Positions 12,178-18,226 of a stretch of DNA of 20,148 nucleotides are shown here, piece after piece. Origin of the DNA: a virus. The notes under the pieces were generated by a model that was not told where the DNA came from, did no database searches, and saw nothing but the letters and a program-made list of their open reading frames with translations. Made by a program: the position numbers and the translations under genes. The stretch is taken from positions 1 through 20,148 of IMG/VR virus record IMGVR_UViG_3300010148_000172; one strand, written 5' to 3'. Numbering within the stretch: the stretch's first letter is position 1; each line of letters starts with the position of its first letter.

Positions 12178-12228
12178 AACTAGTTACTAACATATTAGGC
12201 TATTACTTTTTTTTTACTATTATGCGAT

Positions 12229-14100: not shown

Positions 14101-14448
14101 ATGCAAGATAGAACAGTAAAAGGTAAAGTAGCTATGTTAGAAGCGTTAGAACAAACGCTAGGCGTAGTTACTACAGCTTGTAAAATGGTAGGTATAGAAC
14201 GTAAGACGCATTATAATTGGTTAGAACAGGACGAAGACTATATGTTAGCTGTAAAGAGTATAGAAGACGTAGCTATAGACTTTGCAGAAAGTCAGTTACA
14301 TAAGCAGATAAAAAAAGGCAGCACGTCTGCTACAGTATTTTACTTAAAGACAAAAGGTAAAAAGCGCGGTTATGTAGAACGCCAAGAACACGAACTTAGC
14401 GGCGGTGCTAATCCTATTAACATACAAATAGAAATTGACGACGACTAA
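14101..14448 (+). CDS. terS: Terminase small subunit
   Basis: The 115-residue protein has an N-terminal helix-turn-helix (VVTTACKMVGIERKTHYNWL, about 22-41), a helical oligomerisation part (about 50-72) and an acidic C-terminal tail ending EIDDD. It recognises the packaging site in the phage DNA and stimulates the large subunit. Gene order directly before terL, and an overlap of the two genes, support this. Confidence 0.8.
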   Translation: MQDRTVKGKVAMLEALEQTLGVVTTACKMVGIERKTHYNWLEQDEDYMLAVKSIEDVAIDFAESQLHKQIKKGSTSATVFYLKTKGKKRGYVERQEHELSGGANPINIQIEIDDD

Positions 14449-15742
14449 GCTAACAAAGAAACAAGGGTTAGCGTTAAAGTATCTAAAGGATAACGTTACT
14501 ACAGAAGTTTTATTCGGCGGTTCTGCAGGTGGCGGTAAGTCTTACTTAGGTAGCGTATGGCTAATATACTTATGTACTAAATACGAAAGCATACGCTGTC
14601 TTATGGGCAGGAGTAAACTAGACAGCTTAAAGAAGACTACACTAAATACATTCTTTGACGTTTGCAAACAGTTTGGTATAAAGGCAAACGAACACTATAA
14701 CTATAACGCACAAAGTAATATAATACGCTTTACCAATGGTAGCGAAATAATATTAAAAGACTTGTTTCTGTACCCTTCAGATAAAAATTTCGATTCGCTA
14801 GGTTCGTTAGAAATTACTGCAGCATTTATAGACGAAGCTAACCAAGTAACAGAAAAAGCTAAACAGATAGTAAGCAGTAGAATACGTTATAAGTTAGACG
14901 AATATAACTTAACGCCTAAATTACTTATGACTTGTAACCCTGCTAAGAATTGGGTGTATAGCGATTTCTACAAGCCATACAAAGAAAGCAGAATACCTAC
15001 ACACAGAAAGTTTATACAAGCGCTCGTAGACGATAACAAGCATATATCTAAACACTACAAAGAACAGCTACTAAAACTAGACGAAATAAGTAAGCAAAGG
15101 TTACTGTATGGTAATTGGGAATACGACGACAGCGAAGACAAACTAATAAACTATAACGCTATACTGTCTGCTTTTGAGTTAGACAATACACCTACAGGCG
15201 AAAAGTTTATAAGCGCAGATATAGCGCGATACGGTAAAGACAAAACCTGTATTATATATTGGAATGGTTTACGTGCAGAACAATTTACAGTAATAGAAAA
15301 GAATAGCGTAACAGAAGCAGCCGAAGCTATACGTAAGCTACAGCAAACATACAGCGTGCCGCTAAGTAACATTATAGTAGACGACGACGGAGTAGGTGGG
15401 GGTGTACGTGATATATTACGCTGTAAAGCGTTTGTAAACAATTCTAAGGCACTTAAAGGCGAAAACTATATAAACTTAAAGACACAATGCTATTACGCTC
15501 TTAGCGACGCTGTAAATAAGTCTAAGATATATATAAGCACTAATAACATAACATACAAAAATTACATAGTACAGGAATTAGAACAAGTTAGGCGTAAGAA
15601 CTTCGACAAAGATACGAAGCTACAGCTAATAAGTAAAGACGCAGTTAAAAGCGCTATAGGGCGTTCGCCTGACTTTAGCGACGCTTTAGCTATGCGTATG
15701 TATTACGAATTAAAACCGCAGGGTAAGTATTATATACAATAG
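14435..15742 (+). CDS. terL: Terminase large subunit (ATPase/nuclease)
   Basis: The 435-residue motor protein has Walker A GGSAGGGKS (28-36), Walker B AFIDEAN (130-136) and the coupling segment LLMTCNPAKN (163-172). Its C-terminal RNase H-like nuclease has ISADIARYGKDKT (259-271, Asp262), IIVDDDGVGGG (313-323) and RSPDFSDALAM (410-420). These are the acidic residues that bind metal and cut the DNA. It pumps DNA into the procapsid through the portal and cuts the concatemer. The start is TTG 14435, inside the terS stop region (14-base overlap). No ATG or GTG occurs before Walker A; the first ATG is about residue 57, which would delete the ATPase motif. Translation is therefore probably coupled to terS. 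Confidence 0.92.
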   Translation: MTTTKLTKKQGLALKYLKDNVTTEVLFGGSAGGGKSYLGSVWLIYLCTKYESIRCLMGRSKLDSLKKTTLNTFFDVCKQFGIKANEHYNYNAQSNIIRFTNGSEIILKDLFLYPSDKNFDSLGSLEITAAFIDEANQVTEKAKQIVSSRIRYKLDEYNLTPKLLMTCNPAKNWVYSDFYKPYKESRIPTHRKFIQALVDDNKHISKHYKEQLLKLDEISKQRLLYGNWEYDDSEDKLINYNAILSAFELDNTPTGEKFISADIARYGKDKTCIIYWNGLRAEQFTVIEKNSVTEAAEAIRKLQQTYSVPLSNIIVDDDGVGGGVRDILRCKAFVNNSKALKGENYINLKTQCYYALSDAVNKSKIYISTNNITYKNYIVQELEQVRRKNFDKDTKLQLISKDAVKSAIGRSPDFSDALAMRMYYELKPQGKYYIQ

Positions 15743-15853: not shown

Positions 15854-16507
15854 ATGGAGTTAGTTATAAACAACGATAAATACTATATACCTAACAAGTG
15901 GAATGAAGTAGCTTTAGGCTGTTACATGGAGTTTGTAAAGCACTACGACGAAGAAGCAGAAGAAGTACAAAAGCAAACCGTACTACTATCTGCGTTTACA
16001 GGTGCGCCTATAGATATGTTAGGCAGCATAAAAAAGAAAGTGTTAGATAAGGCAGTAGAACGACTAAACGAATTATTTATTAAGCCTGCTAACAAAGACC
16101 TAAACCTAATAGTAAATATTGACGGCGTAGACTACGGCTTTCACCCTAACTTAGCAGACTTAAAATTAAAAGAGTTTGTAGACTTAGATAACAAACTAGA
16201 AAAAGGGTGGGAAGCTATGGACGCTGTAATGTCTATACTGTACAGACCTGTAGTAGAACAAAAAAAAGATAAATATAAAATAGAAGAATACGACTTTATA
16301 AGTGCTAACAAAAGGGCAGAAATATTTAAGAAGCAAATGTCTGTAGATACGGTAAACGGTGCAGCCGCTTTTTTTTTGAATATAGGAATAGACTACATAG
16401 CGATTACGAAGGCTTATTCAAAAACAATGCCGCAGAGGACAGCACGCCGCAAGGCTATAAAACAGACGAAGAAATATTTAACGAAAACTACGGCTGGTAT
16501 CAAATAA
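15854..16507 (+). CDS. Tail assembly chaperone, zero-frame product (gpG-like)
   Basis: The 217-residue zero-frame protein is a tail assembly chaperone candidate. The first roughly 170 residues form a globular acidic/helical domain: MELVINNDKYYIPNKWNEVA, a segment with CYMEFVKHYDEEAEE, and FHPNLADLKLKEFVDLDNKL near 97-116. At 16369-16377 there is a run of nine T. Reading on in frame gives a short basic tail, while shifting back one base opens the next frame for 84 codons. It is analogous to lambda gpG/gpGT, which coat the tape measure protein while the tube forms. Sequence identity to gpG was not recognised; the evidence is the frameshift arrangement and tail location. Confidence 0.68.
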   Translation: MELVINNDKYYIPNKWNEVALGCYMEFVKHYDEEAEEVQKQTVLLSAFTGAPIDMLGSIKKKVLDKAVERLNELFIKPANKDLNLIVNIDGVDYGFHPNLADLKLKEFVDLDNKLEKGWEAMDAVMSILYRPVVEQKKDKYKIEEYDFISANKRAEIFKKQMSVDTVNGAAAFFLNIGIDYIAITKAYSKTMPQRTARRKAIKQTKKYLTKTTAGIK

Positions 16508-16632
16508 TATATAACCTAGCGCAAGGCGATATATTAAAGTACGACCTAGTTTTGGAAAGGACAGTAGACGAAGTATTTAACTATATAATGTATACGACTG
16601 ATTTAGCACACATACAAAACAAACAGAAATAA
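16330..16632 (+). CDS. Tail chaperone extension in the -1 frame (gpT-like), made by frameshift
   Basis: The -1 frame is open from 16330 to TAA 16630-16632 with no ATG start in its first 80 codons. It encodes, among others, NNAAEDSTPQGYKTDEEIF and NYGWYQIIYNLAQGDILKYD, then VLERTVDEVFNYIMYTTD. GWYxIIYxLAxGD is typical of tail assembly chaperones of Bacteroidota phages. Ribosomes slipping back one base at T TTT TTT or T TTT TTG (16369-16378) would make a fusion of about 259 residues. The frame's stop overlaps the next tail gene as TAATG, showing that it is really used and filling what would otherwise be a 124-base gap. Confidence 0.72.
   Translation, partial: EANVCRYGKRCSRFFFEYRNRLHSDYEGLFKNNAAEDSTPQGYKTDEEIFNENYGWYQIIYNLAQGDILKYDLVLERTVDEVFNYIMYTTDLAHIQNKQK
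16369..16378 (+). other. Slippery site for -1 programmed ribosomal frameshift (T9 then G)
   Basis: Zero-frame codons are GCT TTT TTT TTG, so both T TTT TTT and T TTT TTG fit the X XXY YYZ heptamer rule. After a one-base slip the reading continues GAA TAT in the -1 frame. I did not find an obvious strong downstream hairpin by eye. Confidence 0.6.
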
Positions 16633-17111
16633 TGGCAATATATCAAGGCTTTAACATAAAAAACATAACGCTAGAAAACTTATACAAAAAGATTAGCAGC
16701 GTACTGTCAGGCAACGTATTTGTAACTACAGTAACTAAAGGCGACATATTCGAAGTAGACTTAACAGAAGTAAACTACCCTTTAGCACATTTTGGTATAA
16801 CAAGTGCTAACTACGATACTAACACATTACAGTATGTATTTCAAGTTATTGTAATGGACTTAGTACACAAAGACGAAAGCGACGAAGAAAACGTATTAGG
16901 CGACTGCTTACAAGTTATAGGCGATTTAATAAGCCAACTTAAATACGAAGACGACGACGACTACGGCGACTTTATAAACGACGTAAGGTTATTAGACAGT
17001 GTAAGCTGCGAGCCTTTTACAGAACGTTTTGATAATGAGGTAAGCGGATTTACAGCTACAATAACTATAGAAGTAGACTTTAATTCTTCTGCTTGTACAG
17101 GCGATATATAA
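16632..17111 (+). CDS. Tail/neck protein (tail-completion or tail-terminator-like)
   Basis: The 159-residue product begins MAIYQGFNIKNITLENLYKK and has an alpha/beta core: QVIVMDLVHKDESDEENVLG at about 73-92, then DCLQVIGDLISQLKYED, then a strand GFTATITIEVDFN near the C-terminus. Proteins with this DCLxxIxDLIxxL helix and terminal strands look like tail-terminator/tail-completion proteins in Bacteroidota phages, but I cannot place it in a named family. It follows the tail chaperone with TAATG overlap. The final TAA lies in a tandem repeat. Confidence 0.5.
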   Translation: MAIYQGFNIKNITLENLYKKISSVLSGNVFVTTVTKGDIFEVDLTEVNYPLAHFGITSANYDTNTLQYVFQVIVMDLVHKDESDEENVLGDCLQVIGDLISQLKYEDDDDYGDFINDVRLLDSVSCEPFTERFDNEVSGFTATITIEVDFNSSACTGDI

Positions 17112-17234: not shown

Positions 17235-17690
17235 ATGGCTACTACAGTAACAACACAAACACTAACAGTTAACATAGGCGAAAGCATTACCATAAACGGT
17301 ACTACTTACGACCAAACAGTAACAAAATCGATAGCAGGAATAGGCAACGTATCTAAAAGAATACATACAATACCTGCAGCATCTACTACAACACTAGCAA
17401 CGTTTGCAAGTGCAGGCACAGGCGCTAACTTTGACGTAGAAGACTTAAAGTATATGCGTCTAACAAACTTAGACGATACAGAAAACTTAATACTAACTTT
17501 AGCTTTTAACGCTACTTCGGCTGCAGTAGAACTAAAAGCAGGTTGTAGTATTACCTTGTTTTCTCCTAACGGATTAGGCGCAGGTAGTAGCGCAGCTATA
17601 ACATCACAGGACGATATAGAAAGCTTATTTGTACGCAATAATCATGGCGGCAATACTGTAGATTTAGAAATGTTTGTAGCGACGGTATAG
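17235..17690 (+). CDS. Small beta-rich virion structural protein
   Basis: The 151-residue protein is Thr/Ala/Gly rich with few charged residues and long beta-strand stretches (MATTVTTQTLTVNIGESITI, then LTNLDDTENLILTLAFNATS). It has no signal peptide. The composition is that of a capsid decoration or tail tube/tail fibre-like protein. The A-rich leader and location after tail genes suggest high expression. I do not recognise the family; decoration, tube subunit or minor tail protein remain possible. Its TAG overlaps the next GTG (TAGTG). Confidence 0.55.
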   Translation: MATTVTTQTLTVNIGESITINGTTYDQTVTKSIAGIGNVSKRIHTIPAASTTTLATFASAGTGANFDVEDLKYMRLTNLDDTENLILTLAFNATSAAVELKAGCSITLFSPNGLGAGSSAAITSQDDIESLFVRNNHGGNTVDLEMFVATV

Positions 17691-18226
17691 TGAAAACAAA
17701 AAACGTAGAAAAAGTATTTGACACTTTTGGTAAGAAAGTAGTAGGCAGAGCAAAGTCTATATTGTCTTCTAAAAGTGTTAGCGGTAACTTAGCAGACAGT
17801 CTAGGCTACCAACTTAAAGTATACGATAGTGGCGCTTTAGAATTACAATTTTTAGGCGCAGGATATGCAAGGATAGTAGACGAAGGTGTAAGAGGTTCTA
17901 CAGGTAAAGCACACCCTAAAAAGGGCAAAGTATTAGCACCTAAAAGTCCTTTCAAATACACAAACAAACAGCCGCCTAGTAACGTTATAGACAAATGGGT
18001 AGTACGTAAAGGACTAAGCGCAGCACGCGACGAACAAGGTAGGTTTATACCGCGTAAAAGTTTAGTCTTTGCAATAGCTAGAAATATAAAGTTATTCGGT
18101 ATAGAGCCGTCTAACTTTTTTAGCGACGCACTAAACGAAGAAATAAAGAACCTACCTAAAGATATAGCTAGAGCCTATGCAAAGGATGCTAGCAAATTTA
18201 TAGCAACAGTAACACAAAACATGTAA
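17690..18226 (+). CDS. HK97 gp10-like tail/neck protein
   Basis: The 178-residue protein starts at GTG 17690 (TAGTG overlap). It has GNLADSLGYQLKVYDSGALE (about 31-50) and FLGAGYARIVDEGVRGSTG (about 54-72); GYAxIVDEGVRG matches the YAxyVdeG pattern of HK97 gp10-like neck proteins. The Lys/Pro-rich loop with HPKKGKVLAPKSPFKYT and the RKGLSAARDEQGRFIPRK segment follow. It probably completes the tail or the head-tail joint. Moderate confidence. Confidence 0.6.
   Translation: MKTKNVEKVFDTFGKKVVGRAKSILSSKSVSGNLADSLGYQLKVYDSGALELQFLGAGYARIVDEGVRGSTGKAHPKKGKVLAPKSPFKYTNKQPPSNVIDKWVVRKGLSAARDEQGRFIPRKSLVFAIARNIKLFGIEPSNFFSDALNEEIKNLPKDIARAYAKDASKFIATVTQNM

Follow-up and report, generated by a model that had tools for sequence, protein, structure and literature searches.

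Tail assembly chaperones of the lambda type bind the tape measure and the tube protein, are absent from virions and are made in a fixed product ratio. Where such a pair depends on a -1 ribosomal slip, T_TTT_TTT is all that the slip requires. Slippage of bacterial RNA polymerase is reported to be highly efficient at nine A or T, given a hybrid length of 9-10 bp, and T. thermophilus dnaX is cited as showing slippage insertions (PMC5009743). Selection against A/T runs is visible at nine in many genomes, according to the accessible part of PMC1088944.

The locus studied here belongs to a viral record of 20,148 bases, which was analysed over its whole length and is called the window. Its relevant features are as follows.

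14101-14448, plus strand: terminase small subunit (profile search).
14435-15742, plus strand: terminase large subunit, immediately 5' of the zero-frame ORF (profile and similarity searches).
15854-16507, plus strand: zero-frame ORF with ATG start, 217 codons and 217 aa; phrog_32199, E 7e-10; AF2 model with mean pLDDT 85.
16369-16377, plus strand: T9 slip run, GCT TTT TTT TTG in the zero frame, with in-frame T_TTT_TTT at 16369-16375.
16369-16632, plus strand: -1 frame extension, putative T-like C-terminal domain with WGW[YF] motif; 85 codons after the slip, TAA at 16630-16632.
16378-16507, plus strand: dual-frame overlap, with a divergence pattern dominated by the -1 frame.
16632-17111, plus strand: next gene, 159 aa; phrog_24173, E 4e-4, a family without assigned function.
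17690-18226, plus strand: 178-aa ORF; phrog_29822, E 1.5e-25, a family without assigned function; weak tail-completion/Neck1 match (phrog_5, E 0.0019).

The short product consists of a G-like N-terminal domain and a tail of about 43 aa translated beyond the T9 run. The -1 frame is free of stops from 16330 up to the TAA at 16630-16632, which overlaps the ATG of the next gene at 16632; 124 bases (16508-16631) lie between the zero-frame stop and that gene. A -1 shift at T9 would give a predicted product of 174 + 85 = 259 aa. All coordinates in the preliminary description (zero frame ending at 16507, gap of 124 bases, T9 at 16369-16377, -1 frame open to the overlapping TAA) hold, and the computed length agrees with the fusion of about 259 aa given there. 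In this AT-rich window the T9 run alone is unremarkable, as two such runs were seen and 2.9 are expected; what exceeds chance is its conservation. The other T9 of the window (12207-12215) is situated between two ORFs, where a terminator-like hairpin was looked for and not found.

Relatives were collected in two sets, the first of which, with 83 loci, comprised L001 (the copy in the window itself), two loci obtained via the protein and the best 80 via the upstream terminase. In tblastn searches of this set, the zero-frame product and the -1 product each retrieve relatives separately. The -1 product matches 64 of the 83 loci, L001 included (best other E 4e-56, weakest 4.5e-4), and all -1 matches listed are in the -1 frame relative to the zero-frame match. 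Alignments of 41 members display conservation of both the zero-frame protein (alignment A1) and the -1 domain with its WGW[YF] motif (alignment A2). Upstream of the overlap, divergence at zero-frame codon positions 1, 2 and 3 is 0.32-0.33, 0.21-0.22 and 0.48-0.51, respectively, in three groups of 20, 11 and 33 sequences; within the overlap, the same groups give 0.22-0.26, 0.33-0.42 and 0.31-0.35. The overlap pattern reads as coding in the -1 frame, damped to some degree by the zero frame. The zero-frame stop itself, as read from the alignment, appears to arise mainly as a side effect of encoding G-V-[MI] in the -1 frame.

With both frames conserved and their -1 relation constant, this is, as far as sequence can tell, one gene read two ways, and the frameshift appears real and general within the sampled group. 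A real programmed fusion at the T9 locus is almost certain. The lambda G/GT logic that had been proposed for the gene is borne out in the form of a conserved -1 fusion. The same applies to the coding segment said to be missed by ordinary ORF calling: the GenBank records for two cultured phages, P12024S and P12024L, overlook it as well.

The extended set consisted of 482 loci, window included, and is a sample of the group, since in each scan the best 80 of at least 600 were kept. A zero-frame match was present in 477 of them, and the count leaves out the five loci without one, nine contigs ending before the site and 98 duplicates (identical over 200 nt). One further locus (L178) was excluded by a length rule; it carries T9 in an earlier tabulation. 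Near-identical rows were retained among the resulting 369 distinct sequences, so that sites are not independent. At least nine T are present at the slip site in 369 of 369: T9 in 348, T10 in 20 and T11, the longest run, in one (L371:2498-2508). The T9 runs occupy register 1 in 221 cases, register 2 in 74 and register 0 in 53. A match to the second domain was obtained for 366 sequences, and in 365 of these it is in the -1 frame; the exception (L235) has T9 and a frame break after the run, and in the three sequences without a match the contig ends there. The T run and both frames are hence conserved in relatives, as had been anticipated. Relatives with fused frames or without the run, named in advance as evidence against the frameshift, amount to none of the 369 distinct sequences. 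Outside this set, BFVD entry A0A6J5N0W0 (267 aa) matches the model of the zero-frame product at E 1.6e-12 and that of the -1 domain weakly (E 0.16, probability 0.98); it may represent a fused distant relative.

To judge from these sequences alone, what is new here is a run that occurs in all three codon registers and yet never falls below nine T. Length nine kept in three registers points to RNA-polymerase slippage rather than to the ribosome. We lean slightly towards slippage of RNA polymerase on nine T as the main mechanism and consider it slightly likelier than ribosomal frameshifting. According to this scheme, the majority of translation would yield the 217-aa zero-frame protein. RNA polymerase would slip on the nine T and leave an extra U in the transcript, ordinary ribosomes would pass into the -1 frame on the U-added transcript, and a minority of products would be the 259-aa protein with an additional helical domain. 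The polymerase as the slipping machine, the product ratio and the protein function are what we infer.

The principal alternative is that a tail assembly chaperone gene uses classical -1 programmed ribosomal frameshifting on T_TTT_TTT, as lambda G/GT does, and that the residues encoded in the two frames account for the retention of the two additional T's. It is quite tenable, if somewhat on the doubtful side. The -1 direction is constant, and -1 ribosomal frameshifting is the established mode in tail chaperones, according to the accessible part of PMC5009743. An in-frame T_TTT_TTT is present at all 369 distinct sites. The preliminary description had stressed that the heptamer is in the right frame; the register is as stated, but it does not establish a ribosome slipping there. 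The heptamer by itself proves nothing, because every run of nine T holds an in-frame T_TTT_TTT in any register.

The placement of the remaining T's is more telling of run length. At every site at least two T's lie beyond the heptamer: before it, after it or on both sides. Around the first in-frame heptamer, the extra T's (before + after) are distributed 1+1 in 216, 0+2 in 70 and 2+0 in 53 of 360 tree tips, the rarer placements being 1+2 (18), 2+1 (2) and 0+4 (1). A slip on the heptamer leaves unexplained this compensation between the first two bases of the preceding and following codons, with the total at nine or more. Residues flanking the run are hydrophobic in both frames, which suits the ribosomal alternative, and hydrophobic residues in both frames round FF could keep the T's. 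In register 1, the fourth codon encodes W, Y, S or C, and the codons for these residues have only the first-base T in common.

On a FastTree tree of 360 tips (nine of the 369 rows were too short), the run must have changed state at least 13 times. When flanks were simulated independently over these 360 tips, no tip fell below nine in 50 of 2000 simulations, and departures from nine were as few as the observed 21 in 29 of 2000, so that p under the independent-flank null is about 0.015-0.025. For a smaller set of 287, no tip fell below nine in 45 of 1000 simulations. Selection on run length thus receives modest support, suggestive and not decisive, since independent switches are few and many sequences near-identical.

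Homopolymers in other genes were compared with a synonymous shuffle of 875 other non-redundant ORFs (620 kb) from these loci. Runs of at least eight T number 8 against 20.8 expected (sd 3.0) and runs of at least nine A 16 against 57.5; for at least nine T alone (4 against 6.4), depletion is unclear. T7 is likewise depleted, less strongly (76 against 110.6 expected, sd 9.2), also when it stands in slippery register (59 against 87), which favours the ribosomal alternative. As T7 is depleted too, our estimate for polymerase slippage was lowered. A cruder shuffle of codon order gave stronger depletion; one such run still held three copies of the slip gene. Stops in the +1 frame would be useful if polymerase slippage also yielded the other frame. 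The observed pattern is mixed: such stops occur within two codons in 87% of register 2, 59% of register 1, 22% of T10 and 15% of register 0 cases, compared with 27% in the control.

Folding of RNA was likewise examined, in a sample of 45 of 165 sequences and with pseudoknot-free folding. A stimulatory structure consistent among these sequences was not found, which may speak against the ribosomal alternative: mean z is 0.0 upstream and -0.1 and -0.4 downstream, with controls at 0.0 to -0.25. Downstream windows of 60 nt with z under -2 make up 16%, compared with 7-9% of control windows, and leave room for structure in some members. In E. coli, moreover, U_UUU_UUU is less shift-prone than A_AAA_AAG, as stated in the accessible part of PMC5009743. 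A possible hairpin in nascent RNA 5' of the run (CGG/CCG) was rejected for the window, where upstream folding gives z of 0.2-0.6.

A second in-gene T9, aligned with codons as FFF, was observed in a gene 5' of the terminase (L032:2468, L033:265, L034:2293, L037:3178, L039:868, L076:2810 and L080:1117). The run is found in 7 of 32 distinct homologues, all of one subclade, and the other 25 have one to five T there. In the three cases examined, stops arise within 4-13 codons in the -1 frame and within 3-22 in the +1 frame.

The identity of the protein forms a separate question. We consider it probable that the gene encodes a tail assembly chaperone, on the strength of weak fold and profile matches and of a gene logic like that of known chaperones. 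By inference from lambda gpG/gpGT, the N-terminal domain common to both products would form a coat on the tape-measure protein, and the role of the -1 domain would be to bring in the tail-tube protein. In a structural comparison of residues 1-79 with the PDB, the HK97 tail assembly chaperone (2ob9_B) ranks first among 364 chains, with Z 3.7 across 73 residues and Z 3.1 for the runner-up; this weak match is within noise by itself, yet it falls on the expected family. All 41 members of A1 match phrog_32199, a family without assigned function, and 11 of the 41 weakly match phrog_166, annotated as 'tail protein' (best E 3e-4). The latter profile was not found in P12024S, 6H, 11b and phi10:1. The name 'tail assembly chaperone' in the preliminary description can be retained as probable; the fold match and the 'tail protein' profile matches behind it are weak, and the gene is not located beside a tape-measure gene.

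It is rather unlikely that the same programmed fusion instead produces some other late-gene protein in two lengths beside the terminase. This alternative draws on the absence of any match at E<=1e-3 when the model of the zero-frame product was compared with the PDB by Foldseek (the -1 model retrieved no chain at all), and on the best-matching profiles being without assigned function. In Pfam, no match of the zero-frame product exceeds the curated cut-off and no match of the -1 product is common to more than two of 41 members; no named chaperone profile matches the gene. In BFVD, none of the 39 matches of the zero-frame model at E<=1e-3 has a named function, a TAC-annotated model appears at rank 45 (E 6.4e-3), and nothing matches the -1 model at E<=1e-3. 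Against it stand the first rank of the HK97 chaperone, the 'tail protein' matches in 11 of 41 members, and the -1 domain, helical in its AF2 model (mean pLDDT 71), within a gene logic as in known chaperones.

Gene order also bears on this point. In a relative (L088), the terminase large subunit gene and the slip gene are followed by genes of 166, 151, 175, 474, 723 and 248 aa and then by a tape-measure-like protein (phrog_3336, E 6e-19), after which come protease and head-like genes. The tape measure is thus about 6 kb downstream in L088, and the window ends before such a gene. The slip gene directly follows the terminase gene and does not take the lambda-type position between major tail protein and tape-measure genes, which favours a non-chaperone. 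Gene sizes after the terminase run in a similar series in the P12024S record (compared by size only).

Phase variation, or sequencing or assembly error in the homopolymer, is most improbable: such tracts are mutable and error-prone and L235 has one frame break past the run, but at least nine T in 369 of 369 sites, a -1 relation in 365 of 366, no fused contig among 369 such as a switching tract should give, and the agreement of two cultured phages (P12024S and P12024L) all argue against it.

The host is probably a member of Bacteroidota. This is suggested by the closest terminases, which come from Flavobacterium, Cellulophaga, Bacteroides and Polaribacter phages, and by P12024S and P12024L, which infect Persicivirga; weaker terminase matches belong to Leptospira, Arthrobacter and Aeromonas phages. 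Three matches in otherwise-labelled MAGs are likely to be phage contigs binned with other genomes. Taken as a whole, our picture is a tentative one, somewhat short of an even call: a large and mainly uncultivated phage group, probably of Bacteroidota, would set the ratio of two tail chaperone proteins by polymerase slippage on a length-selected T9 that slides between registers, with no ribosomal frameshifting involved.

A large phage group gains by this analysis an unannotated, widely conserved frameshift gene, and for the cultured phages P12024S and P12024L the gene model becomes complete. If polymerase slippage proves true, another machine would be producing the conserved tail-chaperone fusion, and selection would be preserving the two products as a pair, not the ribosomal route to them. 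P12024S and its host permit direct testing.

Cultured relatives are these two Nonlabens (Persicivirga) phages, in which T9 is in register 1 and the gene is likewise located after that for the terminase large subunit. Their zero-frame product is homologous (BFVD I6R9M9; tblastn 9e-17 from L404 to P12024L), and P12024S has a -1 extension with a similar motif. In the named-phage collection, the zero-frame proteins of the window and of L115 have no match, those of L404 and L325 match only the P12024 phages, and that of L158 matches these and two others at E 0.2 and 0.4. The fusion is unannotated in GenBank, and the -1 remainder appears as a separate hypothetical gene, P12024S_39 or P12024L_41 (after P12024S_38 or P12024L_40). 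The C-terminal part, on the basis of these records, is located as follows.

L413:23570-23830: separately listed C-terminal part in P12024S.
L414:3028-3195: separately listed C-terminal part in P12024L.

Gp10 of Flavobacterium phage 6H (L415:10047-10352, minus strand; BFVD R9VW65, paired on the basis of length, 191 aa) is similar to the zero-frame product. Its gene is followed by an unannotated stretch of about 300 bases in which a segment of the -1 frame is open. Only T6 is present there, with a -1 stop close behind, so that the shift site, if any, differs.

In Flavobacterium phage 11b, also a Bacteroidota phage, a pair of genes (L084, 17864-18528) is in -1 relation at a nine-base run as well, in this case A9. 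No similarity of this pair to the slip gene was seen and, as read from position, it directly precedes a long tape-measure-like ORF, gp40. The overlap at A9 (L084:18173), between gp38 and gp39, is unannotated and chaperone-like. Searches for relatives of this site returned only 11b itself among viral contigs and phi10:1 at 29% among named phages. Cellulophaga phi10:1 was rejected as a second slip case, its second ORF being in +1 with its own ATG.

A homopolymer run of nine is shared with T. thermophilus dnaX and IS elements (PMC5009743). In the transcriptional slippage of dnaX, IS elements and Shigella spa13, an added base likewise leads to the -1 frame, according to the accessible parts of PMC5009743 and PMC1088944. 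Unlike the present gene, those are cellular, IS or secretion-system genes, with no phage tail chaperone among them in these parts of the sources. Within the accessible portions of open-licence literature, no report of transcriptional slippage in a phage tail chaperone was found. The resemblance to lambda gpG/gpGT lies in a short and a -1-extended protein with a common N-terminal domain, here on frame anatomy and conservation only, and in a slip site close to where the first ORF ends (accessible part of PMC5009743). In contrast to lambda and HK97 chaperones, the slip gene follows the terminase and is separated from the tape measure by several genes, and its T9 run may stand in any codon register, as opposed to a fixed heptamer.
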